A stretch of DNA of 64,000 nucleotides from Pycnococcus provasolii. Taxonomy: Eukaryota; Chlorophyta; Pseudoscourfieldiophyceae; Pseudoscourfieldiales; Pycnococcaceae. The translations under genes were made by a program, and so were the position numbers. Under the pieces are notes generated by a model that searched no databases, was not told where the DNA came from, and saw nothing but the letters and a program-made list of their open reading frames with translations. This document shows positions 23,756-63,037 of this stretch, piece after piece. Location of the stretch: contig OW568868.1 of assembly GCA_938743325.2 (NCBI GenBank), positions 62,001 through 126,000 of the forward strand. Reading direction: 5' to 3'. The number at the start of each line of letters is the position of its first letter. The first letter of the stretch is position 1.

Positions 23756-24301
23756 CTACGATCGTTCTTCTTAGTACCTGTGTCAACGTAAAATTATCGT
23801 GGTGCTGTACGGTAAAGCAGGATACTGTACCGTACCGTACCACCACTGTAAACTGTAAAGGTATACGTGAAGGTGAAACTTGACCTAGGGTACTGTACAT
23901 ATCTGCTCGGTCATCTGAACGATTCGTAGTACGACCAGTGGTGGAAGATTCCGTTGGGTGGTAAAGTGGAACGTTACCACCCAGTCGCTAGACTACCAAC
24001 TATGTACCCTTTGGTAGTGGTAATGGCATGGTCGAGTTGCTTATTGGAGTGTCGTGTGCACGCCACGTGGAGGCGTCTTAGAACCCTACCCGGTAGGAAG
24101 CCTACCATCCTACTAAAATACCATGGTAAAAACTTACCGTACGATAGAAACCAGGGGAAGAAACCGTCGCGCGTGAAACCCAACCAACCGAGGAAATCGA
24201 GGAAATCATCATTCATCAAAACCACCCTACCACATCGTAGTACTACCACGGTGGTACAGAACTTACTCGGTCACACAATCCCTCGCAGGCTCGCGGCGCC
24301 G
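23756..24301. other. spacer rich in GTACC/TACCAC words
   Basis: 546 bases upstream of the X8-G8 gene. It has repeated GTACTGTACCGTACC words near 23820-23850 and many TACCAC/GTGGTA words on both strands, which can form small hairpins. The frame of the next gene is open back to 23954, but only from a TTG and without protein-like sequence. Confidence 0.45.
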
Positions 24302-27300: not shown

Positions 27301-29368
27301 GCGCCTTGCCGGGGGACCGTGCCGGATCAGCAGCTCTCACGGCCGGTCGTTCATCACACCATATGGCCCTCTTGTTCCACAGAGTGGAGCTTGGTGGACT
27401 TGTCGCGGTGAGTGGGCAACCGCCTTTTCAAGCGTGGATTTCATGAACTCGTTTAACGCGCTCATTGACGCTCGCACGACGCGCACGTGCTCGGTGGAGC
27501 GCTGCGACGCGCTCTACTCCCCGAATGGCCGCATCGTGCTCGACTCATCTTGTCCGGTATCGGGAGGTGTTGGCTGTGCCATCGGCGGTGAGGCATGTTG
27601 TCGACTCTGCGACGCTGAGGGGTTCAACACATGCACCGATCGTACAGTGCCGTACGTACCCGGGGCACCGTCGCCAGTCACGCCAGCACCACCTCAGCAA
27701 ACCACGACAACGACCACGAGCACAACAAATGTAGCGGTAACAACCACCACAGCGACAGTGACGACCGCACCCGGGGTACCGTCGCCAGTTACGCCTGCAC
27801 CACCTCAGCAAATCACGACAACAACCACAACAACGACATTGACGACCGTACCATCTTCTGAAGTAGCAGCATGCCTGGTGCAACCTGAGGCTGAGCAGAC
27901 GGCATTGAACAATGCACTGAATTACTTGTGCGGCCAGATTGGATGGGACAAGCCATGTTGCAGCGCGGATGTGAGTGCATGTGGTCAATGTGGCAGCAGC
28001 ATTCAATACAAGCTCAATCGTCTCGTCAACCAGTACTGGTGTACCTCGGAAGAAAGAGGCTGCGACGTTGTTGGAGATCCTTCTTGTAGCTTTGGCGGCA
28101 CTATGACGTGGAGAACAGCCACTCAAGCAGAACGCGAATGCGCGGAAGCTGCGTCAGAGAGCTCGGTGGCGACGGCGACAACTTCAACGCCCATTTTGGA
28201 TAAAACCACCACGAAGAATCCAACTCTCTTGACCACTACTACGAGCATGAGCACAAGCACAACGCAAATTGCAGAGCTTTCCATGTCACATGTATCGGCG
28301 GTCAGTGCGAAGGTGAATGCGGATCAGGATTCGCTTCGCGTCACTTTATCACTCTCTAGCGCTGCATCCTATTCTCGTGAGCAAGAAATTCGGCTGATTC
28401 AATCTCTCAAGGGGGAGATGAAAACCGTGAAGTGCAACGCAACCAAGATCGAGTACACAACGACATCCTTCTTTGGGTATGTTGGAGCTGAGCCGATTAC
28501 GGATTCTTCCATTGAAGTCCTTCGTGGCGCTGTGGCTGTGGCTGTGGCTGCCTTGAATATACCTGAAGCTGAGGTCACTGTGTATCGCGAACGCCGCAAC
28601 GCGTATCGCCGCCGTGGCATGCTAGAAGAGCCTTCACATCGCATCAATGTCAGTGTGAATGTGGGCTCATCATCGCTGGAATCAATCGCAGATGTCACAA
28701 GTGCCGTTGGAGAGGCGGCCACCCGCGCATTCGACAATGGCCAACTCAAGGTGCTTACAGAACCCTCACTACAAGTGCACGCCACCTTCGTCAGTCAAGA
28801 GCCTATCTCCACAGGCGCTCTTGAGGCTGTTGCCGAGCAGATGACTCCTTCAGTCGCAGATGTGTTGAACGTCGAAACAGTTGCACCGTCACCGCCGAGT
28901 ATTCAGTCGTCTGAGACGACGACGGAGGTGGTGACCACGTCCATCAAAGACGCCGTCCTGACAACTCATGCATCTAGAGCAGATTCGCCAAAGTCCAACG
29001 TGTCATCAGCGGTGCTAATTGGAAGCATAGTCGGAGGCAGTGGATTTTTCCTGCTCGTCGTCGCAGGCCTTGTCGTGTATTGGCGTGGAAAGTCAAGGCA
29101 GCCAGAAGTGAAGAGCAGTGGGGAGGATCCAAAAGCTGTGACAGAAGCGGTGCTTCGAACATTTGGCATGAATCAGGTGTTTCCCTACGTAGGAACATCA
29201 GAACGCGCCTCGCAGTACTTATACAGCAACTCGCCTTCGAGTCCAAGGTCACCTTCACTGCGATCGTTGCACAATCACACGATGCCGTTTGTGCGATTCG
29301 ATTGTGAAGTGGCTGAAGCGGCTAAGAATTTATCAGAGGATGTTGTCCTGCCACGCTGTGAGGCGTAA
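24302..29368 (+). CDS. cell-surface X8/CBM43-like, G8, parallel beta-helix, X8 membrane protein
   Basis: 1,688 residues from the ATG at 24302, chosen because it starts a signal peptide (RRRILLVVAGLLALS). Order of parts: an X8/CBM43-like Cys domain (FCLPARDASSE...ACDFGGAMVW); a Ser-Pro(n) linker (plus-strand 24720-24950); a G8 domain; parallel beta-helix repeats with GRYCLHYHVVGPC, the counterpart of the G.Y..H.H motif of PKHD1L1/CEMIP; Thr-rich linkers; a second X8-like domain (CGQIGWDKPCC...SCSFGGTMTW); a conserved-looking module with RRRGMLEE; a single membrane span (LIGSIVGGSGFFLLVVAGLV); and a cytosolic tail. X8 modules bind beta-1,3-glucan in plants and fungi, and the convergent neighbour makes that polymer. 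Binding here is inferred. Confidence 0.85.
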   Translation: MPMPMPMAMATRALRRRILLVVAGLLALSAESSALPTAPARKFCLPARDASSEQTRGALSWLCSQLGAQAPCCDPVDAAVCGTCASSDEMKLTKMVNEMWCPGRDCANTVACDFGGAMVWRDVGTGEEGQDEQRCTALAPVPSPPPSSPPPPPPPPPPPMPPPSPPPPSPPPPPPPPSPTPPPPPSPPPPSPPPPPPSPPPPPTPQPPQSPPPAQDDPPRRSNPPLCTLAIGETATASGTILCEEGMNIEGTLTVSSGTRLVTPRIVVGTSGVLQVGTPEIPVSNVEIYLQHDRCDGVTDPSLKRACLANGVLSSYGRFDVFGVPKTPWTLLVDDCDACDTLTVAECSGWAIGDRIAVSATGGRATKYSELVYARNDGMPLAAADPHDNFEVSEATIQSLTALGDGQRCQVKLDGALKHLHRGSWMGGGRVPTHAEVINLSRSVVITGPPMHWKDAAMPIRGGQGIVTAQMFGGTMRVSYARVENCGRVQLGRYCLHYHVVGPCHECHLKGNVVTRGVNKGITVHGTHHATVDQNVVYDLRGASIYIEDGNEVNNTISRNVLMCPSLSNGAPIGNLLQDGTGNHMRGRRCSLLGVESHRDSDYAEQSGIYALSPSNHIIGNRISGHENALFVNHQGGHTYGIGYAKGRNCVASMPFGRTEGNVFHNNAGFGWYVNVAFPTNVDVTAEGYVKDWNSCLPFNMTTGEENGKGFVVKDHVEYFNDFSMGAYDLGDATFENVVSAMSNKGLYWKTYRRGANSAAFARNVTFVDNSAHLEGPGGSGLVEFENLDLITTPGSGLTSRFVINHHCALPAEQTGGLCASHYVIRAAAGAAPFARNQFVSEASRSDAVILYDGASQFLKPAGSGEASVGALPTFETSACTEAAPWLVCNGMDDVRVVRIYSPDRGTLRVTVGGVVYSVPFLSFTRGKVRSNQKYVYTPPEAYLSPGGYTFLVRDNAEISIDIPTSLGPGDALYDMFTLEYADAAMTPETSIRLSISGDARLAGGPCRISSSHGRSFITPYGPLVPQSGAWWTCRGEWATAFSSVDFMNSFNALIDARTTRTCSVERCDALYSPNGRIVLDSSCPVSGGVGCAIGGEACCRLCDAEGFNTCTDRTVPYVPGAPSPVTPAPPQQTTTTTTSTTNVAVTTTTATVTTAPGVPSPVTPAPPQQITTTTTTTTLTTVPSSEVAACLVQPEAEQTALNNALNYLCGQIGWDKPCCSADVSACGQCGSSIQYKLNRLVNQYWCTSEERGCDVVGDPSCSFGGTMTWRTATQAERECAEAASESSVATATTSTPILDKTTTKNPTLLTTTTSMSTSTTQIAELSMSHVSAVSAKVNADQDSLRVTLSLSSAASYSREQEIRLIQSLKGEMKTVKCNATKIEYTTTSFFGYVGAEPITDSSIEVLRGAVAVAVAALNIPEAEVTVYRERRNAYRRRGMLEEPSHRINVSVNVGSSSLESIADVTSAVGEAATRAFDNGQLKVLTEPSLQVHATFVSQEPISTGALEAVAEQMTPSVADVLNVETVAPSPPSIQSSETTTEVVTTSIKDAVLTTHASRADSPKSNVSSAVLIGSIVGGSGFFLLVVAGLVVYWRGKSRQPEVKSSGEDPKAVTEAVLRTFGMNQVFPYVGTSERASQYLYSNSPSSPRSPSLRSLHNHTMPFVRFDCEVAEAAKNLSEDVVLPRCEA

Positions 29369-29667: not shown

Positions 29668-32600
29668 TTACGATGGCGGGGATGGAGGCAAGCGTGATGG
29701 CCTCGTTGGTGTCCCGAAACTCTCATTGGTTGCCGCCAATGCCGCCGCATCCAATGGGCCTAGGTATTCTTGAAGGAGCTCCGGCATCCATGATGCGATA
29801 CCAGTATCCTCGCCCACATCCCTTTCGACGCTCGAGGAAGAGCGCACTATATGCGACCCAACCGATTCAACCGCCTGCATAAGTTCCTCACGCAGCTCTC
29901 CCACTGTTCCTCGAATTTCCTCAGCCACGAGTGCATTGCGCTCGCGTGCCACGCGGTAAACGTCCTGCCTCTCGTGCACAGCCTGCATCACATTGAATCT
30001 GTGACTCTTCAGTGATCGATGGGAGAAGAGACCGCTAACAATACCGCTCACGTAGCGCGGAGTAAGTATCAGGAAGGAATGGATTCCCGCGATCCACTCC
30101 AGACCGATGAGGAAGGAGTGCACAACGGTGTTGAGCAAAAGTTTGGCTATGGCGACGTAGAATGCAAGTTGCCAAGCCAGCGACCGTGTAAACAGATATT
30201 CAGCCATCATTGAAACGCGCTGCGAATCTGAAATCCTACTCGCACCTCGCTTAGCGCGATATAATTTTGTATATACATGCACAGACATCATCAAAGTACT
30301 GCGGAAGGCCATGAGGCATCTAAAGAAGATGATTGCGGCAACGAGAAGCTCTGCGAAGCCGGTACCAATCGACGGCATGACAAATGGCACAAGATAAGGC
30401 ACGAGCAGCCAAGGGAATACCATGAGAACAAGGTGTCCGAAGCTCGCTCTGCCAGTCCATTCCCATATTCCCATTCCGATGATGTAGAGCAGGAACGCGA
30501 ACACATAGACGTACATCATGTCGAAGACTACGGCGAAGGATGTAAAGCACACCATGACTGCAATGAGGATGTCTACGAACGTGTGCACGCTCGCCATGAT
30601 CCATCCAATCTTATCCGGATCAAGATGATCAATGTCGTCACGAAGTGCGCTCTCGTATAGACTGCTCAGTTCGAACGTCTTGGCTTTAATCAGAGACTTC
30701 CACTTCCCCTCGTCATCACAGAGCGGCTTGAGAGGCACATAGCTGCAGTACGACAGAAAAGCACCAAAATCCTTTTTCAAATTCGAAAGCCTTGGAAGTG
30801 GATTGAATAGAATCTCGGCAGTCGTCCACGCCACGACACTGGCAGTTGTGAAGAAGAGAGGAAGCCGGCCGCCCGTCGACTGCATTAGGGTTGCGTAAAC
30901 GCAAAACATAAGCAAGACGAACAGAGACTTCGAAACGTGCGACGTGCGATATTGCATGTAGGTAGTAAGCCACGAGAATCGAGTGTTTGCGTTCGGGCGA
31001 CCCGTCGCGGCATACGCCGCCTCGTCCGCTGGAATGGCATCCTCCACCTGCGAGGCAACCGTTTGGTTGTGGAACACGAAGAAGATGGTGGATGGTATGA
31101 TGTCTCGAAGGACTCGATAGAATCCACGGATCGGACCAAACTCCAAAACCATCTCGAGCACCATCGGCATGATTTGAAGGAAGCCCATTGAAAGGATCCA
31201 CTCGCTCGCAAAAACGGAGCCAGCTTTTCCTAAGTCGACGAGGCGAACGCTTGACAGCGCGAGGAAAAAGAATGCCGTCATGTAGATGTACAGTGCCACG
31301 TGAACAAGCATCGTGTTTAGATAAAAGCCAGACATGCCGTACGCCATGCTAAGACGCTTGGATCCGGTCATGTGTTGGTACATAGCGTGGAACTCGCGAG
31401 TTCTGCTCGCAGCTCCGTGTCCCGCGGAAATCTTACGCAGGAAAACCCCGGCGGGATAAAATGATACCTCACGACCCTTCTGAAGCTCGAGCAAGTCGCT
31501 GTATCCGATCGACTCGCCGCGATTCACGACATTCAAGCCGGCAAAGACGTCCTCTGAAACATTGAAGGATGCGCTTGCCTTCGACATGCTTCCACGTGTA
31601 AGTGTCCAGCACGTGTCGAAAAGCTCGTTGTAGCCGTAGTGCAGCCTCACGCCTAGACTTGCCATCGCTCTTTGGATGATTGTGCCAAAGCAGAACTCGG
31701 CATTGCTCAAGGCGGCGCCGCTTGCACCCTGGTCGACTGTGTAGACGTATTCGCGGAATCCAACGAGGCGGTGCTTCAGCACCTTTCTGTTCTCGGCCAC
31801 CGCTTGGCAGTACGGCTCCCAAGTTGGCACATCCTCGGGCGACTTTGGCACGGGTGATCCTAGCCAAGTTGAAGATTGGCGACGTTCGGGAGTACTTCCA
31901 AAGAACAATGCGGTGCGCGAATGTTGACGGAAACGTCCGATGGCCATTTCAGGCGCCTGCTTCTCCTTATGCCTCATTTGAAAATTCGGCTGAGGCTGCA
32001 ACCAAAGCTTGTGCAACAGCACAGGCAACTTGAATAGCTCGCAGGCTGTTGCGTCCATGTTGCTGTCCATACCCATCAGGACGCTTCCAGTGGCCCAGTG
32101 AAGCATGTGCCGCTGATTTGCCGCCTTTCCTTGAATAGGCTGGCCATCGTTGAGCCGCAGCGGATACTGTCGTATTACGATGTCCACCACCTTTAATCCG
32201 TCCGTTTTGCGAATGCCATGCTGAACCAACACAGACGCGTGCGTGCAGAGGTCCGATAGCGTATTGGTAATTGTGAACTCGCGGATTACCAAGTCCACCT
32301 CAGAAGTTTGCGTGTTATCTCCAATTAGTGCCGACGACATCTTTCGTGTGTGATTCACCACGGAATCCGCCTTAACCGTGTACGCGGTGCCGAGCGATGG
32401 GTAGTACACCACTGCGCTCTCCGCGCCGAGACGCTGCGTGCACCTGAGCATTCCGACGAGAACGCGTCGGGGAACCTTCGCGCTGCCACTTTCATGCTCC
32501 TTGCGCACCATCTCGAGGAATGATTCGTATGCCTCCTCCTCAGTCTTACACTCCTTAACGTATCTTGGACTGTCCGGGTCGTCGATACTCACGAGATGAT

Positions 32601-35600
32601 GAGATGCGTCCGTCAAACCAGCCATGCGCTGGGTAAGATGCTTATTCACGAGGTCTCGGAACCACGGACTCGCCTTCTTTGCGTTGAAGTCGCAGACCAT
32701 GGATAGCGGATAGTGCCTGAGCTCACAGAGCAACTCAGTCACCATCGCGTCACGCTCCTGATCTTTCGGGCCATTGCCAGAGCCAAATGTTTGGTGGCCC
32801 ATGATGACCTGTCCGTGTCGATGGATCTGTCCGCGATCACCGCGCATATGAGGGAACAGCGTCTCGAGCGCTCGACCGTACTTCACCGCACCGCGAACGG
32901 TCCGACTGACCGTTTGACTCCAACCACTGCACCTCTTGCAAACGGCAGATTCGATCGTACGCGCCCATCGGTGGAGATCTCTCACCTCCTCGTTTGGTAG
33001 ACTGGTCGCTTGGAGGAAGCGATCAAGCACCTGCTTCGGATGAAGCGGCAGTGCAAGACGATCGAGAGCAATGAGGCGATCCACCTGACGTTCGGCAAAT
33101 CTTTCCCACTGCTCAGGATAGAGGGCGGCGAAGAACTCAAGATTCGTTGCCTGGCCATCAAGAGTCTGCAGGTACCACGGCGTTTCGGAATCCGGCGACA
33201 CGCCGCGCACACGCCACGACGTCGTCTCGGCATATACAGGAATTAGCGTGGTCACAGAAGGCAAAGCATGCTCGGCCCCTTTGTCGGACAGGCCGCGTTG
33301 GAATATGCCCTAATTATTTAGTGGGTTAGGTTAACGTATGTTGTTTATCCGTCACGGATCGTTAGATGTAGACTTACCTTCTTCGTGAACTTCTTTTCTA
33401 TGCGCTTGACTGTTCGATAAAAGAACGTGAGCTGCTCCTGAGCCACACGAGGCAGGTCAGCGAGCTGAAGAGCAGCGCCTTTCTGCGCGTTTGTCATGTC
33501 GATGAGGCGTTGCATTTCGCTTTTCGTAACCTCATCATTTTCGTGCAGCTCCCTGACGATGCGCTCCCATGCCGCCGGCCAGCGTGGGCCAAGCACCGCC
33601 TGCATACTCTCACCATCCGCCGCGAGTGCACCATTGCCACCTGGTTTGTAAAATTGCAGCTTCTGGCTAATGTCCGGTTGCCGCATACCCTGGATGCCAC
33701 TTTTCAGACCTCGGTACGTTCCAAGCAGCGCGAGCAGCGCCTTGAATGCCGCGTCTATGACCACGAACGACGTCAGTGTGCCTAGAATGAAAAATAGGAA
33801 CACCGCGATGGCGCAACCCGCGCAGTCGGTGCGCGGGGCTGCGCTGTACGCGGAGAGGAAATTTAGGAGGGCGTCCTCTCCCGCACCATGCTGGTTGCAG
33901 CGAGACCGGCACACGCTGTCAAGATTGTCGACGGACGGAGTTACGTAGTTCAGCATGAAGTACAGCGAAGCCATGAACACGAGACCCCACGTTCCCGTGC
34001 GCATGAGTTGTTGCCGGGCACTTCGGCTCGTTCGCTTTTGCACAAGGTCGGAATACACGCGGGATCCCGGCGTAAACATCTCATCCTTTTGCACGTCCTC
34101 GCGCGGCTGTCGCCTATCTCGAGCAAGAACGGCCCCGATACCGCGTTGGATGGAGTATGCTGAGGCATTCATTGCGTGATGCTCGAGACGGCTCAGGGCT
34201 GTACCTGGCATATACACCGGTCGCTCACGCAGGCACTCGCTCATGGGTTTGCCCAATATGTAAACATTGAAGCCGAGCTTTCCCAGCCACTGCAGAGTGT
34301 CAAATGCCATTCGTACGAATACGTAGTACCACACCCAGATTGGCACCACGCGATTTTGCAGGCCAGACAGCTCTGTAGCGCGCACAGCTTCAAGCAGCGT
34401 TTTATCTGTGCCGAAGTCTGCGTTTTGGATCATCTTTTCAGTCTCATTGTCGCTTGTTAGCTTAATGGTGAAAAGTACAATCGTAACCACAAACCAGGCG
34501 ACGCACTGCACGATGTGTGACAGTAGCCAAGCTTCCTTGTAATCGAGGAATCGGCCGAGCACACGCCTCAACTCAACCGGGTTTAGCACGCCGGGTGACA
34601 CTCTACCAAAGCATCTCTGCGGCCAGCGCTGCATTCCAGGAATGAAAGCCTGCGACAAGTACCCGATGCTGTGAAGGAGCGCAAGGCATAGCGCTTCCGT
34701 GCGCAAGAACAAAATGAGAATCCTCGCAGAATCAGGATTTGGATCCCACACGCTTGCCCAATAACGGGATGACCACACGTACGAGTCGCTGAGTCTTTCA
34801 CACAGCCAACCACTGTTGGAGTCTGCGAGACTGGCGCCAATGGCAGCCCCAGCTGCGAATGCGCCGATCGCTCCGGCTACGTAGAAAATACGAAACATGA
34901 TCGTCTCCCGCATGTACTCGCGGGTCTTCTTGTCTGCGTAATCCTGCAAGATTCGAAACACGAAAACGAAGACGAACAAGAAGACGGCTCCAATGGGAAT
35001 AGCAAGGGCCATCTCACCAACGATGCACTCTTCAACATCACTGGCACTGAGATTGTCGCGCACACGGTACAGGTACCATGCCGCCGCGACGATCCACGAG
35101 CCGAACATCAGCACAGAGTGCCAGTAAATGATGTAATCCATAAGCACGAAAACGCCACTGCTTTCGCGGAAGCGCTTCTTTAAAATGGGTGGACTGGAAG
35201 GGGCCTTCTCGCCGGCGACACGCTTCACGTCGTAAAACGCCGCATCGTTCCAGTCATCAAAGTTGTACTGAAATGGATTTCCTCTCACAGCTCGAATCTT
35301 CTCGTTTCCGCACATAAGCCACTGCCAATGCACACGATAACGTCGAATACCTGGCACGTCCTGTGGACCAATCTTTGGATCGAAGACGCGAATTGGGTCA
35401 CCTAGCATGTATTCCGTTGCGTTTGAGGGTAGATCTCCCTTTCCATTGATCATCTCTGAATTTCGCAAGACATTGTCAAGCACACGTGCTAGCCATTCGC
35501 CGGCAAAGATTCCCGACTCGCTCATCTGGCGCAGAACGAGCGAACACAACGCCTCCGAGTAGAGCTCGTGGTACGGCTGCTCATCCATCTTAGTCGATAT

Positions 35601-37241
35601 CAGTCCCAGGTCCTGGCAATGTTCGAGGTAGCAGTACCGCGCCTCGAGGAGTCGCCAGTGGATGTTCTTGAGCGCATGCTCGGCGCGCATGTCAGGATCT
35701 GGTATGAAACCCAGCTGTTTGTATTCGTTGAGGAGCATCTCGTCTAGAACGCGGGCCTGCCGCCTCGCATGCCCACCGAGGTGCACGTTCCACAAAGGAC
35801 CCCAACCATCGGCGAAGTTTCCTGGCACGACAATCTCAAACGACGTGTTCGTGGTCCAGTATCCAAGGTAGTCAGCCGCGGTTGGCGTTGAGAATTGACG
35901 AGGCGACGATGAATCTGTCTCTTCCTCCGCTGCGTGCAGCCCGCACTCGTCTGGCTCACCCTCGGCTGGGAGTTCGTGCAGCGAAACCGTGGTCTTGATT
36001 CGAAGATCAGCGCACGCACTTGTTTTGTTGTTGTTGTCTTTCGAATTGGCGAATAGTTCAGCGATCACCTTCACTTCCTTCGAGGGTGCAGCCATCTCGA
36101 TGCACTTGCGAAGTTCTGGCATGCCATCACCGTCGGGACTGACACAGGACGCTCGTGCGAGAAAGCGGCGTAGGTAGCCGTTAAGACGAGCATGTTTTTG
36201 AAGAAGGCGCATGACTGAATCACGAGTTGCAGGCACCAATGAGGACGCATCTTCACGCTCCGGTGAATTCGACGAACCTGCTCCACCAGCTGATGGATTA
36301 ACGATGCATCGGGTGAGTATATCCTTCATCGCCTCAAGTGCACCGCGAAGATCCTCTCGATTTCGCTCCTCCTCGGACTCAGCATTCGGCCCATCGGGAT
36401 CGATTTTGTCAGAATCGACAGCATCCGCTTTCACAGCCTCCCTTTCGAAAATACGCGCCTGCTTGGCCATACCCTCGTTGCCCCACGGCACCCACTGGTC
36501 GAGAAGTCGGTGACGCTTCACGATCGCACATGCTAGTACCTGTTCCGCGGTCTCGTCGCCATCTCCTCCTTCTTTCTCCGCCCTTCGCGCACGACGAATC
36601 TGGACCCTCTCGGCATATGAGCCAACCGTCAATTCCGGGATGAGGCGCACCCCGTTCAGTACTTTTTCATCTTTGTCCGACCAAGAGGTAACGATCTTCT
36701 GAAATTTGGGGTGTGCGCTGGAAAGGCAGTTGTACAGCTCTTCCGGCGGGATCCATTTTGCTTTGGCGGCCTCCTCCACCGCCTTTTTAAGCGCCCCGAC
36801 CTTCACCGCAGCCAGGCTGCTGAATACACAAGTTGATTGTGCGAATGATTTTGCCGCTTCAAACGCTCGCACGCGATGGTCACCCAAGCGACTCATCCGA
36901 AGGGATACACTACGCAGCTCGTACATGATTATGGCAGCAGAAATAAATATAGCGAGGTACCAGCGCCAGTTCACCCCGTCTGTCGTCAAGTAGTCGCACG
37001 TGTCTGCACGCTTCAGCGGAAGGCTACGCCATTCGTCGAGTCCTCCCGCCGGAATCCACGAACTGCCGCGGGAAGTATCGATGCCAGTGCCGCGTGCCTC
37101 ATACGTCCATCGGCTTGCACCACCGTGCGCGGCGTACCACACGGAGCCAAGCGCGGGGAATGCGAGGCGCGGCGAGACGCAGTGCATGCCGATGGCATCA
37201 TAGGGATAGGCGAGGCCGAGGAATTCCACGGATACCTGCAT
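29668..37241 (-). CDS. beta-1,3-glucan (callose) synthase, GT48/FKS family
   Basis: Exons run 37241-33378 and 33309-29668 on the minus strand, with a phase-0 intron between. An extracellular N-terminal segment precedes the first membrane span (WYLAIFISAAIIMYELR, about 94-110). Next come a cytosolic FKS1-type domain (LLEARYCYLEHCQDLGLIS; MLGDPIRVFDPKIGP), membrane spans, and the catalytic region with LHYGYNELFDTCW, TLTRGSMSKASASFNVSED and VGFREYVYT, all matching the callose-synthase core (HYGHPD, TRGG.SKAS, G.REhIFT). A C-terminal membrane bundle follows. It polymerises UDP-glucose into beta-1,3-glucan across the plasma membrane. The frame is open upstream of 37241 to 37342 without a stop, and probably continues by splicing into the GH72 module at 37393-41977. 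The N-terminal segment on its own has no signal peptide. Confidence 0.92.
33310..33377 (-). other. intron in the glucan synthase gene
   Basis: On the minus strand the donor GTAAGTCTAC starts at 33377 and the acceptor AATTAG ends at 33310; the length is 68 nt and the phase is 0. It joins ...KKFTKK to GIFQRGLSDKGAEHALPSV and continues into the catalytic domain, removing the stop that otherwise ends the first half. Confidence 0.9.
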
Positions 37242-37285
37242 CGTGCCCACGGCGCTCCGTCCAAAAGGACCACATGGCGAATGTA

Positions 37286-37392
37286 CTGCTCGTTTTAAAT
37301 GTTTTGGGGCGCGTGGTCCGCGTGTATGTGCGTACGTCAGTCATGAGAAGAAGCAACGCAAACAGACAAAAATGGGTAAAAGCAAAACGCAC
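37286..37392 (-). other. probable intron joining the GH72 module to the glucan synthase
   Basis: The minus-strand donor is GTGCGTTTTGC at 37392. The tandem acceptors ACGAGCAG end at 37286 (or 37289, three bases earlier in the minus-strand reading). Splicing at either preserves the frame and gives ...GGWCDSSPFG, then VHSPCGPFGRSAVGTMQVSV. Length is 107 nt, with a pyrimidine-rich first half. The acceptor has a weak polypyrimidine tract, so this is a proposal. Confidence 0.6.
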
Positions 37393-40329
37393 CAAATGGG
37401 CTTGAATCGCACCAGCCGCCTCTAAAGCGGCCGCCTGCAGTCCAGTCGTCCGAGAATTCCTCGACGAGAATTCCCGACATCGTTGGAAGCGATGAATTTT
37501 TCAGCTGCCTGACAGCCGCGATGATCGTAGCGGCATGAGTGTCTTCGTCAATCTCGCCATCCTGAACATCGCCCTCGTCCGAAACGGAGTCTATGCGCCA
37601 CGCATTGACGCTGAGCGAAACGATGGTGGTTTTGTTTGTGCCCTTAGACACGGCACGCGCTAGCATTGGTGCGGTGGGCGCGACGAGCTCACTTCCTTGG
37701 CCGACAACATTCGGAAGTCGTATCTCGAGCGTCCACACGTCGTTCTGCATTGTTTCGAGCGACTTTACGAATTCCTCAATGGTGTCCTCGAGCAGATCAT
37801 CGCCGTGGATATTTCCAGCATCACGGAGCTCGAGTGGCACGTAAAGTGGCAGAGTATTCCCTTCGCTGTCAAGCACCTGTTTCGCAATGCGCACGGCGGC
37901 GCGCCATACGCTGATGCGATCCTTCGTCTCGCCAAGGACTGGTCCGTACGAAAACGAAAATCCAAGAACCGCACGATGAAAGGCGCTGCACAGGTCGATA
38001 GTCCTAGTTGGCGTGACTTTACACGCCTCTCGCACAAAGGCGCGGAATTCAGCCTCAAACGAGAGGAAATCCGCCCCCCCGTCCTCGACGCTTCGGTCCA
38101 GGTGCAATCGAGGGTCAAATTCGAGCACAGCAAACAGTCCAGCGTTTTGCACGGCGTCCAAAAACACGCGATGGTGCTCTATGCTCTGATCTCCGTCACG
38201 AAGCCAAGGGCGTGTCCACACGACGTTCGCCTTGAGCACCTTTCTGATGATGTTGAGTTGCTTCTTGTGCATTCCAGAGCTCCAGATCGCGTATGGATCA
38301 CGCGCGGTGCTCTGACCAATCACAGTCGGATGGAAGCGGACGGCACGCATCTCGAAAGGAACGCCATGAACGCGGAGGGTGAGATTTGATGGTGGCGTCA
38401 GCCAGGTTTGCCAGGGTGCCCTGCAATTCGCGGCGCAAAGATCCTCAGAATGCGACGCCTTTACCGTTCGCAGATCAGACCAAGCGTCATCGCCGCGCTT
38501 GTACGACGTGGTGGCTGTTCCATTTCCCTTTCGCGTCCATCGAAACGTTTGCGGTATCTGGTGCGCTGCCTTGGTACGAGGGGAAGCTTCGTGTACGCGG
38601 CTGCAGAAGTCGTGGCAGATGCGGCGATGCGGCGCACTTGGCACGCTGTCCGGAAGGCGGATGGCAACTTCGTAGCATTGTGTATTGTTCAGCACGATCG
38701 ATTTGGTTTCATTCGCCACCTCCAACCTTCCCGCGTCGGTGACCGTCACGAGGGATAAGGCGGTGGAAGTAGGCATCGGCAATGCTGGCCTCGGACGTTG
38801 TCCCAATCCAGATTCCACGACAATGTCTGCGATGTATCGCTGAACGGCAAGTTTGTCGAAGTCCGCTCCAACTAGAGCACTCTCGAACATCTGCACCGGA
38901 GAATGATATGGCGTTGCGACGTCCTGGTCCGCCGTGAGTTCAGCCCTTTCTGTCGTGGGGTCAACAGAGTATGCACACAGCCTTACGGAAAATTGCGGAG
39001 GTTCTGCCGTCCAACGCATTTTGGCAGAATAGGCCACCGCATTCAGGCGGCGATTCTTCAGAGCGGGTTCGACGGTGGCAAGATTCACCGCGTCTCCACA
39101 TTCCACCGGTCCGATGTCCACATCTCCCTCCTGCGTCAGGCGACGCCGCGTGGAAGGGCCGTCTGCTGTAGACGGAGAATCCGTTCCGTTTGGTGGCTGG
39201 CTCGGCGGTGGCGGTGGTGAAGAGACACAGATCCCTCCTAGCGTCCCGCAGGGTGGGTAGGGCGGGGGAGGAGGGCTCGGAGGCGGAGGAGGTGGTGGGC
39301 TCGGCGGTGGTGGTGGAGGCGGCGGGCTGGGTGGAGGGGAAGGAGGTGTTGGAGGCGGTGGTGGGCTTGGTGGAGGCGGGGGGTACGGCGGCCGAAAAGG
39401 GCGTGGAGGTGGCGACGGAGGATTGGGAGGAGGCGATGGCATTAATGGGGGTGGCGATGGACTGATCCACCAAGGTGGAGGTGGCGGTGGCGAAGGAGGT
39501 GGAGGTGACGGCGGCGGTGGCGGGCTGGGTGGCGGTGGAGGCGGAGGTGGCGGTGGCGAAGGAGGAGGAGGTGGTGGCGGTGGTGGAGGAGGAGGCATCT
39601 GGCACTGGAAGAACGCAGCAGAAGTGATATTGATTCGGGTGAGCTTGTTGATTCGTGCCTCGATTCGTTGGGAGAGGGTTAGAATATCCGCCCCAAGCAC
39701 GTCCTCGATCGGCACGAGAGCGCCGTCCACGCCACCCTCCTTCATGTCGGGTTCCGGGTCCGGCCACGGGCTCCCCGTTCCGGCAACTGTCGTCGAGCCA
39801 ACCACCGGCGGTGCGGGTGGTGGTGGCGGCGCGACGATGTTCTGGAGCGTCGGGAAGATGGACGCACAGGTCACGGATTTTCCGATGAGCAGATTCGCTC
39901 GGCACGACTCAAAGTACTTGGTCCCGAATGCCATCCCGCGTGACTGGTCCAGCTGCCGCACGACGCCATCATTTGCAAGGACCGAAACGCGCCAGTCGCG
40001 TGGATCAGACTTTTCGGCTCCTCTTCTGATGGCAAATGAGTAGCGTCCGACAAATGCACCCTGGCTGAGCGTGAACCGAAGCTGCCCCTGACCCTGCGCC
40101 TCGTCACAGGTGAACTTTCTCGTGGCGACGCCGCCTATGGCGCACTGCGTGGAAGCCTCCGCCGCGGTGTCAACGGGAATCGTGCACACATCCTCGCCGC
40201 TGTACGACTGGAGCACGATGCTAATCATTCCCGCGTCGGCAACGGCGCATCCACCGCGCGGCGCACCCGCACTCGCCACCGCAAGAAGATCGAGCTGGTA
40301 CGTATTCGCAATGAGCGGTGGTGGCGGCG

Positions 40330-40369
<40 letters not shown>

Positions 40370-41977
40370 CGGAGCGCGGTACGAGCAGATGGACGTCTCG
40401 GAGACGATGCCAGGCTCGAACTTGTACGTCGATGGGCATGTGGGCTTGAGCTTCGTCACCTGGTCCACTCCAGGCCTGCCCCATCTCGTCTGGGACTCGT
40501 CCCACTGCACGGGCTCGAGATCTGGCGGTCTCTCGCGGTTGATTAGCAGCATCATTGTGCTGCACTTGGGTCGCGGCTGAGCTTCAAGTGGCCCGCTCGC
40601 ACCGCACTGCAGGTTGTCCATGGTCGCATCATCCTTTTCGGTGAAGCCCACGCCAGACTCGTGCAGCTCACGAAGCCGCGCCTTCAAATGCACGTAGTTT
40701 GTGAGCGGCGTTGTGGGCGGCCTGGCACCGGGGTCGACTTCCGTCGCATCGTCGCCGTCGAAAAGACGAAATTCCGAGTTCACGCCAAATGACGCCGAGC
40801 CGTACGTGTACGCGAAGAAGCCAGGCCAGACGTCGCGCATGTGTTCGGCGGTCGCGGTTGTCTGGTGCCACTCGCGCGGTCCTCCCGTCACGGGATCAAA
40901 GTCGCCGTTGATGCACCCGAACTCCGTGAACATCTGCGGAATTGCCACCCCTTTCGTCTTGAGGTAGATCTCCTCGTAGCCGTTGTCGACCCACGTGCCT
41001 TCGCGGCTGCACCAGCGGTACTGGTTGAGCCCGAAGATGTCGAGCCCGAGCGCGTTGATGGACGGCTCGACGTCGCTCTTGTCGTCACGCGCCGCCTCCT
41101 CGCCCTCTTCGCACGACAGCAGGTCCGCCTTGATGCGGTCCATCTCCACGGACGTCCGTCCTTGCCCAAGTCCGTCCGCGCTGTCGGCGGCGGCGAACAC
41201 GAGCGGCACCTCGCGCATGCTGTCAGCGCAGCTTCTCATGTAGTACTTCAGGTCTGCGACGTACTGCTTTATGCATCCCGCCGCCTCGAGGTCGAACTGC
41301 AGCACCTCGTTTCCGATGACAAACCCGAGCGTGTTGTTGTATCGTGCAAACACGTCGACGATGCGCCTTCCGTAGTCGAGCAGGCAAGCGGGGTAGCAGT
41401 CATCGTCGTAGTTGTACGCATCTTCCCCCCTTCTGATTCCGGTGGGAACTCCCTTCTTCTTCAGCGGGCAGTACCTGAAGTCCACTCCACCTTGGTTGAA
41501 GTACTCGTCGCCCGCCGGCGTCGCACCAACGAGGACGTACACGCCTAGCTCCGCCATCCTGCGCATGAAGAGGTCGTACGACTTGAGCGGGTTGATGCGA
41601 TAGACGCGTATGGCGTTGAAGTGCAGCGGCATGCCGTCAGGCTTTTCGAGCGCTCCCCCCGCGCCGAAGACGGCGTTCCAGTTTTCGAAGTGGTCGTCGT
41701 CGACGTAGTATCCGTACGTGAATCCTTTGGCGAAGAACCTCTTACCTGAAGGGAAGTGGTACGTTGCGTGACCTCTGATGACGACAGGCTCCAAGGCTGC
41801 CGCCTGCTGCTGCTGCTGCTGCTGCTGCAGTTCACGCGCCATCGCCACGCGTGGAAGCGCGAGCGTGAATGTGAGCGCGCACAACATGGTTGTGAATGCC
41901 ACGCACATGAGTGCTGATGGCCACGCACACCTAACCACCACAGACGAGCGCGACCGAGGGAATGCGAGCACTGTCAT
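37337..41977 (-). CDS. GH72 beta-1,3-glucanosyltransferase with HRGP linkers and a second GH-like domain; probable N-terminal part of the glucan synthase
   Basis: 1,546 codons as an open frame. An N-terminal signal or anchor (about 21-47) and poly-Gln come first. The GH72 domain follows (about 65-430), with IRGHATYHFPSGKRFFAKGF at its start, acid/base Glu224 in IGNEVL and nucleophile Glu352 in FTEFGC, as in Gas1/Gel enzymes. Two Ser-Pro(n) linkers come next, a short one near 545-570 and a long one at 39190-39600. A second, degenerate barrel-like region ends ILVEEFSDDWTAGG. GH72 enzymes cut a beta-1,3-glucan chain and rejoin it to another, elongating wall glucan outside the membrane. The last about 18 codons are probably intron read-through; the true product likely continues into the GT48 gene 95 bases downstream. 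Confidence 0.88.
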
Positions 41978-43077
41978 TCAATCAAGTCAAGTGGGGTTGT
42001 GGTGTGCTGAGGTGTGCTGATCTGCGCCCAACACAGATGAAAGACGAAAGAAACAAGGCAAGAGACAGCCAGTGCAAGGGCCAGGCCAGTGCAAGTAAAA
42101 GCTGCCCTGATAATACAATCAATGCTGGCCTATTAATAATGAAAGCAAAAGTAAAGTTAAGAATGGGAATCCAATGATGGCCAACGCTCATCAGCAAGCA
42201 ACGTCTCGTCTGTCCGTGACGGCTGGTTCAACTCACTTGGTGTACACAAGGGAACACAATTGGCCCTTGCACAAAAAAAGTGGAATAAAAAAGTTATTTT
42301 TATGGACCCGTTGGTTTCTTTCAGTCTTTCGGACACATGAAAGGATGGTTGTTTTGTTCCGTTTTCGTTGGTAAATAAATTGATCAACCATGCACATGAC
42401 GAACAACCTTGACGAACCAGCAGGTCCTTGAAAGTTGAATTTCAAGGTCTTGAAGTGAGACACACAAGTGGCATGCTCACAGCGTTCGACGCGCCTTGCA
42501 AGGATAGTCCTAACCTATATCAGAGAATATTAGGTATGGCAAAGAGAGAGGCAGCTTTAGACAAATACTTCGGAAAGCTTCGAAAAATACTTCGAAGGCA
42601 ACTGGAAGGCCTGGCTGGCATTCCAGGTGATCTCTGTCTTTGATTCTCGGGTAGGACGACTTGCAGGACGACTGTACAGTAGGCTTCCTAGACCGATTTA
42701 CGTGCCGTGGTGTTTGCCTTGCCTTACGTGTCCGAGACCTGCGTTATAAATGCCGTAAGGGCATAAGCTGTGTGACTACGGCAGGTTGCGACCAAACCAG
42801 AGACCACGCCGCCAGGGGCCACCTAGGTGGTGAGCCGTGGCCTTAGGAAGTAGGGCGAGCACGGAAACCACGGAACCTAACGACTGTAACCCTAACCCTA
42901 ACCCTAAAGAAAACCTGGCAACCCTAACTGAACCCTACCCCGACAAGAAGCCCCCTGGATGAAGGGAAAAGGTTCAAGAGTGCATCCCCCAAAGTACGTT
43001 CCCGATAGCCCTGTTATTTGGTAACTTTTGGCCTTTTCAGCGTTTTCATCGTTCACTCACGTACTGTATGTCACCTC
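41978..43077. other. 1.1-kb spacer without recognised gene
   Basis: Lies upstream of the GH72 gene (minus) and the OPR gene (plus), so it holds both promoters. Short inverted words occur (CTTCGAAAAATACTTCGAAG near 42577-42597). Telomere-like TAACCCTAACCCTAACCCTAAA lies at 42887-42908, about 170 bases before the OPR start. The 71-codon frame at 42428-42643 has no recognisable features. Confidence 0.5.
42887..42908. promoter_or_regulatory. telomere-like (CCCTAA)n promoter motif
   Basis: Three uninterrupted CCCTAA units in the presumed promoter of the OPR-RAP gene, the same position class as the motifs at 5877, 53808, 59584 and 60776. Confidence 0.5.
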
Positions 43078-45285
43078 ATGGCTGTCACACTTCATGCGCG
43101 TCCACACGCACACATGCTGCTCCTTGGAATACGCCGAGGTCGCTCGCCACGTCAACGTCGCGATGCTGGGCTCGTACGCTCTAGGATTACCATTGGTTCC
43201 GAGGGTGGGTTAGGTTTGGCTGGGGGTGCAGCTCGGGTTTGGCTGCTTTCTCGCCGCGATGGTGGTTATGCATCATCGCGCCTCGTCGCGTGCGCTGCAG
43301 GTGACGACGTGCGGAGATCGGGCAAACGTTCCCATGATGATGCGAAGCAGTCGCGACAACTACAAAAGCCACGACGGAACAGGAATCGGAGTACCTCGAA
43401 CAAGGACTCGGCGGCGAAATTACTCAACGCGCGTATCGTAAAGGCGCGATACGACGGCGAAGTCGCGGACATCGTCAAGCAGCACGTCGGCGAATTCGAC
43501 GAGATTCACGTGAGTACAGCAGCAAACAAACTCGCGAAGCTCACAGCGAGGCGTCACACGAGAACACTCAGCAAGAGTCAACGTGACAGCGTGCTTCTTC
43601 TGCTGGAGGAGCGCCTGCAAGACTTCGAGAGAATTCGTGCACGTAATGTTGCCGGCCTGCTCTGGTCATATGCGAAGCTTCGGTACCCAGGGAACCACTC
43701 AGCAGTGCAGTGCGTGAGCGATCACGTACCTAGGGTGGTGGACGACTTCAATCCGCAGGCACTCGCGAACACGGTGTGGGCGTGGGCGACGATGCGACAC
43801 CAGCCTTCATCTCATGCGCTTGCTGCTCTTGAGCGCCGCATGCTCGCGTGCGTCGACGACTTCAAGCCGCAGGAGCTCGCGAACACGGTGTGGGCGTGGG
43901 CGACGATGCGACACGAGCCGTCAACTGAGGTGCTTGCTGCTCTAGAGCGCCGCATGCTCGCGTGCGTCGACGACTTCAATCCGCAGGCACTCGCGAACAC
44001 GGTATGGGCGTGGGCGGCGATGCGACACAAGCCGTCAGCTAAGGTGCTTGCTGCTCTCGAGCGCCGCATGCTCGCGTGCGTCGACGATTTCAAGCCGCAG
44101 AATCTCGCGAACACGGTATGGGCGTGGGCGACGATGAGACACGAGCCGTCAGCTGATGCACTTGCTGCTCTTGAGCGCCGCATGCTCGCGTGCGTCGACG
44201 ACTTCGATCCGCAGGCACTCGCGAACACGGTGTGGGCGTGGGCGACGATGCGACACGAGCCGTCATCTCAGGTGCTTGCTGCTCTTGAGCGCCGCATGCT
44301 CGCTTGCGTCGACGACTTCAAGGCGCAGGAGCTCGCGAACACGGTATGGGCGTGGGCGACGATGCGACACGAGCCGTCCGCTCGTGCGCTTGCTGCTCTT
44401 GAGCGCCGCATGCTCGCGTGCGTCGACGACTTCAATCCGCAGGAGCTCGCGAACACGGTGTGGGCGTGGGCGACGATGGGACACCAGCCGTCAGCTGCCG
44501 CGCTTGCTGCTCTTGAGCGCCGCATGCTCGCGTGCGTCGACAACTGCATTCCACAGCATCTCGCAAACACGGTATGGGCGTGGGCGACGATGCGACACCA
44601 GCCGTCACTTCAGGTGCTCACTGCACTGGAGCGCCGCATGCTCGAGTGCGTCGACGACTTCAAGCCGCAGCATCTCGCGAACACGGTATGGGCGATTGCG
44701 ATGCTCATGAACAACATCGAGGGAGAGAAGATCACTATCGATCAGGACGTGTTGGATCAACTTCTGCATCAATTAGAGGCCACAAAATTCAGCACACTTG
44801 AAGAGCAACACTTCCAGCAAATCTTCCAGGCACATCACCTGCTCGGCGATCGCTTCAAACCATCAGTGGCCTTGCTCGATCAGGCACGCGAGGCATGGGC
44901 GAAGCAGCTCGCGAGTCGTTCGTCGTCATCTCAGTCATCCTTAGAGAAGGAAGTTTCCGCATGCCTCGATCGTCTCAGCATTACTTACGACGTTGAAGCG
45001 CTTACTGAGGATGGCATGCACCGCATCGACATGCTCGCGCGTGGTCGTACCGACGACGGTGGCGAGAGGCTGCTTGCGATCGAATGCGACGGTCCGTCGC
45101 ACTTCTTCCAAGTATCTGACGGCACGTACCGCATTGACGGATCGACGTACGCGCGCAATTGCGACTTGCGCAAGCTTGGCCTGGACGTATTGTGCGTAGC
45201 GGGGCATGAGTGGATACGTCTGACGAAGGACGAGCGCGACGCGTATTTTATGAGCGAGCTGCAGGAGCGTGGCATCGTTGTCTAG
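43078..45285 (+). CDS. OPR-repeat protein with C-terminal RAP domain (organelle RNA factor)
   Basis: 735 residues from the first ATG; the frame opens earlier only with a TTG. The basic N-terminus fits an organelle transit peptide. Eight complete 38-residue octotricopeptide-type repeats and one partial follow, with the consensus PQ-x-LANTVWAWATMRH-x-PS and then LAALERRMLACVDDF. They differ mainly at the residue after PQ and the two or three after PS. The C-terminus is a RAP domain (LLAIECDGPSHF, DLRKLGLDVLCVAGHEW). OPR-RAP proteins bind specific organelle transcripts and control their stability, cleavage or translation. The repeats are nearly identical at the DNA level (114-base period), which produces false open frames on both strands. 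Confidence 0.9.
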   Translation: MAVTLHARPHAHMLLLGIRRGRSPRQRRDAGLVRSRITIGSEGGLGLAGGAARVWLLSRRDGGYASSRLVACAAGDDVRRSGKRSHDDAKQSRQLQKPRRNRNRSTSNKDSAAKLLNARIVKARYDGEVADIVKQHVGEFDEIHVSTAANKLAKLTARRHTRTLSKSQRDSVLLLLEERLQDFERIRARNVAGLLWSYAKLRYPGNHSAVQCVSDHVPRVVDDFNPQALANTVWAWATMRHQPSSHALAALERRMLACVDDFKPQELANTVWAWATMRHEPSTEVLAALERRMLACVDDFNPQALANTVWAWAAMRHKPSAKVLAALERRMLACVDDFKPQNLANTVWAWATMRHEPSADALAALERRMLACVDDFDPQALANTVWAWATMRHEPSSQVLAALERRMLACVDDFKAQELANTVWAWATMRHEPSARALAALERRMLACVDDFNPQELANTVWAWATMGHQPSAAALAALERRMLACVDNCIPQHLANTVWAWATMRHQPSLQVLTALERRMLECVDDFKPQHLANTVWAIAMLMNNIEGEKITIDQDVLDQLLHQLEATKFSTLEEQHFQQIFQAHHLLGDRFKPSVALLDQAREAWAKQLASRSSSSQSSLEKEVSACLDRLSITYDVEALTEDGMHRIDMLARGRTDDGGERLLAIECDGPSHFFQVSDGTYRIDGSTYARNCDLRKLGLDVLCVAGHEWIRLTKDERDAYFMSELQERGIVV

Positions 45286-45418
45286 GAGATTAAGACGACG
45301 CCGACGAAGAAAAAGGCACAGAAGAGGCGAAGCGTATGGGGAAATGGGAAAAATTAAAATATTGCAACACGCACATCTCATCCACCTAGAACTTATAAAA
45401 ATGAAATTTAAAGCTTAC

Positions 45419-45913
45419 TTACAGACCGAGCGCGTTGATGCGCTCGCGCGTAAACTCGTCGCGCAGCGATAGCACCTTGCGCACCTCAGATGCGCTCAGA
45501 CGCCACGACACCTTCGCATCCCACACCTCGAGAACCTCGTCCTCAGACTCAAGCGAAACCAAAGTCGCCATCTGAGATAAACGAGACAGCTTCTCACGAA
45601 TCCTGCCCCTGGGGCTGATCGGTCTTCTTCTTCTTCGTCGTCGTCGGCGGCGGCGGCGCCGGCGGGCGTCGTCGTCGTCATGGCCTTGTTGATTTTCAAA
45701 TTTCCTGCCCAAGTTCGTGACAGCGACGACCTTTAGTAGGCCGTAGGGTGATGAAGCCGCATACGACGAGAAGAGGCGTTGTTGTTGTTGATGCTTCTTC
45801 TGATGAGTGATGACAGCACACGCCGTGTGGACGACTACTAAGCAGGAAGCAGGACGCGGCGCGCAGCAATCATCATCATCATGGCCACCACGTCCACGGA
45901 GGATGTTGAACAT
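45419..45913 (-). CDS. small unrecognised, possibly mitochondrial protein
   Basis: 164 residues from the ATG at 45913. The N-terminus, with basic, His/Gln-rich stretches and LFSSYAASS, could be a mitochondrial presequence. The centre has a run of about 14 Arg encoded by a CGG/CGT-type triplet repeat. The C-terminal 65 residues look folded and conserved in style (GRIREKLSRLSQMATLVSL, then KVSWRLSASEVRKVLSLRDE). The last part resembles short mitochondrial ribosomal or assembly proteins only in general character. It sits between the two OPR copies on the opposite strand. Confidence 0.55.
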   Translation of the reverse strand: MFNILRGRGGHDDDDCCAPRPASCLVVVHTACAVITHQKKHQQQQRLFSSYAASSPYGLLKVVAVTNLGRKFENQQGHDDDDARRRRRRRRRRRRRRPISPRGRIREKLSRLSQMATLVSLESEDEVLEVWDAKVSWRLSASEVRKVLSLRDEFTRERINALGL

Positions 45914-46144
45914 TGTGATCAAGAATAATTGAAATTGCGTTGCGGAGAGACGAGAATTTGGAGGTGAATATCAGATAGTGCGCACTGCGCTTTGTCATGG
46001 GATCGGGTTTTCGGGGCGCCTTGATTGGCGATTGGGGTTTCGTTCAGCGTGGGTGTGTGATGGGAAATTTTTCCTGTTTTGATTTTTTGAATTGTTCGCG
46101 ATTTTCATAATCATTTTTATTATTTTATTTATTTTCAGCGCATC

Positions 46145-60775: not shown

Positions 60776-63037
<2,262 letters not shown>

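Follow-up and report, generated by a model that had tools for sequence, protein, structure and literature searches.

A predicted GH72-GT48 fusion protein of Pycnococcus provasolii with a membrane-proximal barrel crossing the exon junction

The 64,000-nucleotide stretch of Pycnococcus provasolii DNA analyzed here (the window) probably contains one gene for one membrane polypeptide, in which a signal peptide, a GH72 domain, Ser/Pro-rich rods, a catalytically dead GH72-like barrel, a membrane span, and a GT48 synthase follow one another and the tethered GH72 domain would remodel the emerging chain. Homologues and a barrel that crosses the join lend strong support to the predicted GH72-GT48 fusion. 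An earlier note on this DNA had proposed the fusion and named no described case; no GH72-GT48 fusion is described in the literature searched. The arrangement is not unique to this gene, as a barrel is present in 12 of the 32 GT48 proteins retrieved. The open reading frames on the minus strand are a GH72 frame (41977-37337, 1546 aa), a first GT48 frame (37340-33345, 1331 aa), and a second GT48 frame (33309-29668, 1213 aa). Splicing at 37392/37286 and 33377/33310 leads to a chain of 4,044 aa with no inner stops, in agreement with the in-frame join through donor 37392 suggested earlier. The gene shows the following features:

41834..41977, minus strand: start codon and signal-peptide-like N-terminus, aa 1-48 (hydropathy peak at aa 23-41)
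40718..41785, minus strand: GH72 domain, aa 65-420 (PF03198, PDB matches, GNEV and FTEFG motifs)
39251..40375, minus strand: three Ser/Pro-rich rods (sequence)
37393..38374, minus strand: exon-1 portion of the membrane-proximal GH72-like barrel, up to and including strand 8 (seven-homologue HMM, leave-one-out, alignment)
37286..37392, minus strand: intron 1, 107 nt, GTGCGT...GAGCAG (best in-frame GT..AG intron, two homologue HMMs)
37131..37285, minus strand: membrane-proximal barrel, last part with the second conserved Cys and helix 8, exon 2 (HMM, P0007 model)
36900..36956, minus strand: predicted membrane span at the barrel/synthase boundary, aa 1639-1657 (hydropathy peak 1.68)
33378..36899, minus strand: loop region at the N-terminus of the synthase with its first cluster of membrane spans, exon 2 (hydropathy)
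33310..33377, minus strand: intron 2, 68 nt, GTAAGT...CTAAC...TTAG (sequence)
29668..33309, minus strand: exon 3, with the catalytic part of GT48 and the membrane region at its C-terminus (PF02364, phmmer to Fks1/Gsc2 chains, motifs)

The ATG at 41977 lies immediately 3' of an in-frame stop, and the stop codon of exon 3 ends at 29668. The rods occupy 40375-40316, 39598-39473, and 39394-39251 (minus strand), with a Cys-containing segment separating rods 1 and 2. Intron 2, which is absent from the description in the earlier note, shows the textbook form AAG/GTAAGT...CTAAC...TTAG/GGC. The donor of intron 1, GTGCGT at 37392, is not the plainest donor form; the acceptor region ACGAG/CAG/TAC offers possible ends at 37289 and 37286, and retention of the intron leads to a stop for the exon-1 frame and would give a secreted form with GH72 alone. 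The PF02364 and PF03198 matches found in the genome (two stretches each) all fall within this gene.

The third frame matches PF02364 with 224.9 bits against a cut-off of 37.2, on the same strand as the GH72 frame as first reported, and phmmer connects it to Fks1/Gsc2 chains with E values down to 5.2e-29. The PF02364 core is common to fungal Fks (Fks1/Gsc2) and the P. provasolii enzyme, as are the active-site motifs K-N, DxN, and ED, which are given for GT48 in PMC12715860. Here, the motifs read GKAANQ (from 32130), DSNMD (from 32067), and VSEDVFAG (from 31560); K and N of GKxxN, DxN, and ED are all present, at aa 3225, 3246, and 3415. To our knowledge, Fks lacks an outer barrel, a signal peptide, and an additional span at the N-terminus, and Gas1 is a separate protein. 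The hydropathy profile shows a hydrophobic N-terminus, the barrels, one span at approximately aa 1639-1657, a long loop, and the synthase spans. As far as hydropathy goes, this order is consistent with the proposed topology of GH72, rods, and barrel outside, followed by the span and the synthase. The post-barrel span is found in six of six homologues run, with P0008 left out. Domain searches place both GH72 and GT48 above the Pfam cut-offs, and the FKS1 domain named in the earlier note is not recovered: FKS1_dom1 (PF14288), found in the cytosolic N-terminal part of many GT48 members but not all, gives no Pfam match at E≤1 in the P. provasolii frames and is listed for none of seven clade mates and none of four sister-group proteins (P0009, P0010, P0012, and P0014). 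Its absence across clade mates and sister group therefore indicates a mark of the subfamily and not an exclusion from GT48. NCBIfam gives no match.

Seven unannotated GT48 proteins from other assemblies (P0003, P0004, P0005, P0007, P0008, P0011, and P0013) contain the membrane-proximal barrel and the synthase in one uninterrupted frame. They were picked by eye from ten, leaving aside P0006, P0009, and P0010, and for five of the seven the contig extends only slightly beyond the frame. In the GT48 tree, P. provasolii, on a long branch of 1.39, forms one clade with these seven homologues, all eight barrel-fused, with a support of 100/99. Since the fused relatives share one clade, the barrel-GT48 arrangement is, judged by sequence, a protist architecture and not a lone fusion, to which P. 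provasolii adds an intact GH72 domain on proline rods. The seven homologues are without the PF03198 domain and rods in front; P0005 and P0008 instead show an N-terminal Pfam PF11790 domain, a family which we take to be the GH128 β-1,3-glucanases. The search for GH72 plus GT48 in one chain suggested earlier succeeds for barrel and synthase, and none of P0003-P0034 pairs GH72 above the Pfam cut-off with GT48. A second GT48 group, P0028-P0032, falls elsewhere in the tree and follows the same fusion principle, with a GH72/GH2-like barrel retaining both Glu; unlike P. provasolii, its members carry two synthase modules per chain (in P0029 recognized by motifs only) and FKS1_dom1. For one of these five, the source gives the name "1,3-beta-glucan synthase". 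A GT48 word search among long proteins gave nothing at E≤1e-5, a result of no weight because it missed P0005 and P0008, which were found otherwise; a viral_contigs scan with P0032 found no relative.

The N-terminal GH72 domain matches PF03198 with 99.9 bits against a cut-off of 25.9, and its PDB matches are Gas2 and other 1,3-β-glucanosyltransferases. Both catalytic Glu residues claimed in the earlier note, acid/base and nucleophile, are present in frame and aligned to Gas2 as E224 (GNEV, 41308-41306) and E352 (FTEFG, 40924-40922). Gas1, Gas2, Gel4, and Phr1 have PF03198 and both Glu in common with this domain but are separate proteins, with Phr1 and Phr2 described as GPI anchored in PMC6882867. 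According to PMC5478894, Gas1 and Gel4 elongate and branch β-1,3-glucan and need CBM43 for this dual activity. CBM43/X8, a module of the dual-activity (elongating and branching) members and not of all GH72 enzymes, gives no Pfam match at E≤1 in the P. provasolii GH72 frame, in contrast to Gas1 and Gel4. An X8/CBM43 module read by eye from the Cys pattern of the convergent neighbor (23930-29368) was unconfirmed by Pfam at E≤0.01. By phmmer at E≤1, no relatives of the GH72 domain occur among the fetched proteins; the conserved fusion partner, as predicted from these comparisons, is the membrane-proximal barrel, and the intact GH72 domain is an extra N-terminal module.

This second barrel is present as first described, but its role has to be recast, as it is the conserved partner and has lost its catalytic Glu. 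By alignment, both Glu positions are gone in P. provasolii, P0003, P0004, P0005, P0008, and P0011, and the barrels that have kept them are those of P0007, P0028-P0032, and P0055. The model of P0007 shows a complete (β/α)8 barrel, in which helix 8 spans 481-493 (pLDDT, 82.4), and structure searches place it near the folds of GH157, GH158, and Gas2, with an endo-laminarinase among the solved folds close to it. The exon-1 part of the P. provasolii barrel, modeled by AlphaFold from eight sequences, reaches a pLDDT of 49.2, too low for the model to be of use; the single phmmer match of the joined barrel in the PDB (E = 1) was regarded as chance. Leave-one-out profiles give 58.6 bits for P. provasolii and 26.8 to 86.4 bits for the seven homologues, whose profiles contain the joined P. 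provasolii barrel, compared to −1.8 to −1.0 bits for the best of 20 unfused controls (barrel-less GT48 proteins among P0003-P0034, first 900 aa each). Kinship to a single GH72-type profile is weak for some of these proteins: when 25 solo GH72-like barrels form the profile, the score is 9.4 bits for P. provasolii, 7.2 for P0013, 5.5 for P0005, and −2.1 for P0008, and the membership of these four is assigned from the seven-homologue and leave-one-out profiles instead.

Two other functions can be considered for a single chain. The GH72 domain would, in an unlikely case, be a hydrolase or editor which trims or releases chains and does not graft them; homology to GH72 cannot by itself tell transferases from hydrolases, and the PF11790 domains of P0005 and P0008 and the endo-laminarinase fold near P0007 fit such an activity, contrary to the elongation and branching by characterized GH72 enzymes in PMC5478894 and PMC6882867. 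A role of the outer domains limited to glucan binding or to anchorage of the synthase in the matrix, with GH72 catalysis being dispensable, is quite unlikely, since the N-terminal domain keeps both catalytic Glu and so do the barrels of P0007, P0028-P0032, and P0055. Such a limited role is favored by the six Glu-less barrels listed above and by the Ser/Pro rods, which are typical of algal wall proteins.

The one-chain reading draws on the barrel at the junction, which straddles intron 1: the GH72 frame encodes strand 8, the GT48 frame encodes helix 8, and each side has one conserved Cys, so that the barrel is complete only once the intron is spliced out. With a profile of the seven homologues, P. 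provasolii left out, the joined chain scores 63.5 bits, compared to 34.0 and 12.0 bits for the parts alone, the latter being the head of the second frame. When 533 decoy pieces take the place of the sequence after the junction, the mean is 34.2 and the maximum 44.6 bits, and 2,000 shuffles reach at most 53.6 bits. Among 26 in-frame GT..AG introns, 37392/37286 ranks first with two homologue HMMs; a five-homologue profile scores the rival intron 37357/37236 only 1.0 bit lower. Both acceptors had been named earlier, of which 37286 is preferred and 37289 is less favored because of their homologue HMM scores (63.3 and 56.8 bits) and the PF-x4-C spacing of several homologues. A split into two neighboring genes, with a secreted GH72 protein that stops at 37337 and an independent GT48 enzyme from the ATG at 37241, is highly improbable despite the frame end and ATG near the gap and the existence of both GH72-like proteins without GT48 and barrel-less GT48 proteins, as the secreted protein would stop inside a barrel lacking helix 8, the GT48 enzyme would start with its missing end, and all seven clade relatives have the barrel in the GT48 frame.

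For the fused polypeptide, a mechanism can be proposed in which the synthase would use UDP-glucose as its glucose donor at the cytosolic face and push out β-1,3-glucan. The dead barrel, with its fixed position at the membrane, may hold or guide the emerging chain, and the GH72 domain on its flexible rods would cut this chain and join it to neighboring glucan by transglycosylation; synthesis and remodeling would therefore take place at one site. The GH72 part may, as proposed in the earlier note, elongate or branch the emerging chain. The most likely product is a matrix glucan of a prasinophyte-type alga, either extracellular or made in the Golgi. The polarity of the GH72 reaction is compatible with transfer onto the non-reducing end of a glucan. 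A tentative extension is a synthase grafting its own product: the chain would grow at its non-reducing end within the synthase, as described in PMC12715860, with the other end already outside, and the GH72 domain would cut the outside part and transfer the still-growing chain to the non-reducing end of existing glucan. The polarity of both reactions allows this, and new polymer would then be covalently joined to the matrix before its synthesis finishes.

In fungi, new β-1,3-glucan has to pass from Fks to Gas/Gel enzymes. Fusions of GH72-type barrels and synthases, which occur at two separate places in the GT48 tree, suggest that this hand-over can be direct and provide single-chain material for testing it. 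The same polymerase and remodeling principle is known from the bacterial cyclic β-1,2-glucan synthase, with a phosphorylase-type remodeling domain in one chain, in other families and for another linkage. Yeast Gas1 copurifies with Fks1 (PMC12715860). This small green alga would make, cut, and rejoin glucan with one giant protein, where fungi use separate proteins. The gene places GH72 in a green-lineage alga, against the statement in PMC6882867 that the family is unique to fungi. It also places GT48 in an apparent prasinophyte, a group in which an earlier survey of a few genomes had none (PMC3797821). The GC3 value of 0.79 in the GH72 part, compared to ∼0.62 in the remaining gene, indicates that this part may have a different history from the rest of the gene.

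Three long frames follow one another on the minus strand of the window.

Long minus-strand frames of the gene at 41977-29668
41977-37337, minus strand: frame 1, GH72, 1546 aa
37340-33345, minus strand: frame 2, 1331 aa
33309-29668, minus strand: frame 3, GT48, 1213 aa

Frame 1 matches GH72 (PF03198) with 99.9 bits against a cut-off of 25.9 and contains the motifs GNE (E224) and FTE (E352), aligned with the fungal glucanosyltransferase Gas2. Frame 3 matches GT48 (PF02364) with 224.9 bits (cut-off 37.2) and can be aligned with the fungal synthases Fks1/Gsc2. These matches bear out an earlier note, which had described a GH72 frame with both catalytic glutamates and a GT48 frame on the same strand; its in-frame join holds as well, since removal of the proposed intron 1 (37392-37286) and intron 2 (33377-33310), the latter a textbook intron, leaves a single frame of 4,044 aa. 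The matches to PF02364 and PF03198 in this gene are the only ones found in the 32.3-Mb, 46-contig genome. The GH72 part (40478-41977, minus strand) shows a GC3 of 0.79, compared to ∼0.62 in the rods, the second barrel, exon 2, and exon 3, and may have joined the gene later.

Intron 1 would interrupt this second, membrane-proximal GH72-like barrel, which has lost both catalytic glutamates. In the alignment of its homologues, barrel strand 8 is followed by a cysteine, a short loop, a second cysteine, and then the stretch that forms the last helix. Of these elements, the window's GH72 frame contributes the first cysteine (residue 1523), and the GT48 frame contributes the second (residue 1533) and the last helix. 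Acceptor 37286 yields SPF-VHSP-C, an exact match to the P-F-x4-C spacing of the retrieved proteins P0003, P0007, P0011, and P0013; P0004 has P-Y-x4-C, and P0005 and P0008 deviate at the PF. In an AlphaFold model of the P0007 N terminus (26 sequences; mean pLDDT, 82.4), the (β/α)8 barrel is complete, with strand 8 at 365 to 370 and the last helix at 481 to 493. By alignment, the counterpart of intron 1 falls between these two elements, so neither frame by itself would encode an intact barrel. The exon 1 part of the window's own second barrel gives a poor model (pLDDT, 49.2).

With a barrel profile built from seven homologues only, leaving out the window, the joined chain reaches 63.3 to 63.5 bits, compared to 34.0 for the unspliced tail of the GH72 frame and 12.0 for the head of the GT48 frame. 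Of the two acceptors named earlier, 37289 and 37286, the latter is favored by profile score and exact spacing, and its neighbor falls behind at 56.8 to 57.0 bits. Among 26 in-frame, stop-free GT..AG candidate introns between the two frames (11 donors and 7 acceptors), intron 1 ranks first under two profiles (63.3 and 30.3); the runner-up is the neighboring acceptor under the first (56.8) and 37357/37236, 1.0 bit behind, under the second, which comprises five homologues. Replacing the part after the junction with 533 pieces of other window frames gives a mean of 34.2 and a maximum of 44.6, and shuffling the true part 2,000 times yields at most 53.6. With leave-one-out profiles, the score is 58.6 bits for the window and 26.8 to 86.4 for the seven homologues, whose profiles contain the joined window barrel; the best of 20 barrel-free GT48 controls (first 900 aa each) scores −1.0.

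A protein search akin to the one proposed earlier, run on other assemblies, returned relatives with barrel and GT48 in one chain. A GT48 search of 1,815 candidates of ∼1,556 to 4,950 aa found 25 proteins at an E value of ≤0.001. The seven barrel homologues come from the ten of these inspected in full: P0003, P0004, P0005, P0007, P0008, P0011, and P0013 carry the membrane-proximal barrel and the synthase in a single uninterrupted frame. A hydrophobic span lies between the two in P0003, P0004, P0005, P0007, P0011, and P0013, the six homologues scanned for it. For the first five, the longest contig barely exceeds the frame, which suggests transcript-like sequences.

By these profiles, 12 of the 32 GT48-bearing proteins retrieved (P0003 to P0034) contain a barrel and 20 lack one. 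A profile of 25 solo barrels recovers nine of those 12 at an E value of ≤0.001; the assignment of P0005, P0008, and P0013 comes from the leave-one-out profiles. A tree of 39 GT48 modules places the window in a clade with seven others, every member of which is barrel fused (support, 100/99). There it sits nearest to P0005 and P0008 (98/92), a placement made less certain by the window's long branch (1.39). P0028 to P0032 (4,795 to 5,149 aa) combine a GH72/GH2-like barrel retaining both glutamates with two GT48 modules per chain (in P0029, judged by motifs), fall elsewhere in the tree, and belong to clusters of 27 to 921 sequences. In P0055 (1,546 aa), two GH72-like barrels are combined with a span and FKS1_dom1. 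The P0006 frame, 4,155 aa long, carries two GT48 modules, and the profiles found no barrel in it. The barrel label requires three changes on the tree, of which well-supported branches force at least two, so that the fusion would be either old or of more than one origin.

Among the matches listed by full-text searches of the open-licence PMC literature, no description of a GH72-GT48 or barrel-GT48 fusion was found, judged mostly by titles and the beginnings of abstracts, and the portions of PMC3797821 and PMC7965971 consulted mention none. The former, an earlier survey, detected no GT48 among the prasinophyte genomes it covered. The component parts are already known; their arrangement appears new to us.

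The sequence itself shows the order of the domains, the catalytic residues, and a single hydrophobic span that separates barrel from synthase; this layout would place the barrels outside and synthesis inside. According to PMC12715860, Fks adds glucose at the nonreducing end and the chain exits through its membrane channel; PMC5478894 ascribes elongation and branching of β-1,3-glucan to the GH72 enzymes Gas1 and Gel4. GH72 in the same chain could cut the outside part and move the still-growing chain onto existing glucan, and the inactive barrel would keep the strand in place where it exits. Branching is less certain, because Gas1 and Gel4 need CBM43 (PMC5478894), whereas none is recognized here. 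The product may be wall, scale, or capsule material, or another.

Several other frames were recorded. The convergent neighbor (23930-29368, plus strand; 1812 aa) contains proline rods, a weak G8 match, a CEMIP β-helix (PF24606, 90.7 bits), and two cysteine-rich segments that are X8/CBM43-like by eye only. At 43009-47403 (plus strand), two frames contain numerous near-identical LANTVWAWATMRHEPSA repeats, and one of the frames terminates in a RAP domain. A 739-aa frame at 60818-63037 (plus strand) joins an esterase (PF00756, 168.6 bits), S-formylglutathione hydrolase-like by eye, to a zinc alcohol dehydrogenase (PF08240 and PF00107), perhaps uniting two formaldehyde oxidation steps in one chain. 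The window also encodes a dynein assembly factor. The genome has 51 chlorophyll-binding places, and the frames inspected are green-type by eye; at locus L010, a lycopene cyclase-like frame (by eye) ends in a chlorophyll-binding light-harvesting domain, a type known from Ostreococcus and Micromonas. Read on their own, the dynein factor and these features would suggest a flagellate prasinophyte, probably a member of the Mamiellophyceae. Locus L021 (G000:C8:308973-309701), on a main-genome contig, holds a 583-aa RuBisCO large subunit-like frame (PF00016, 75.9 bits) with a tail that is cupin-like by eye.
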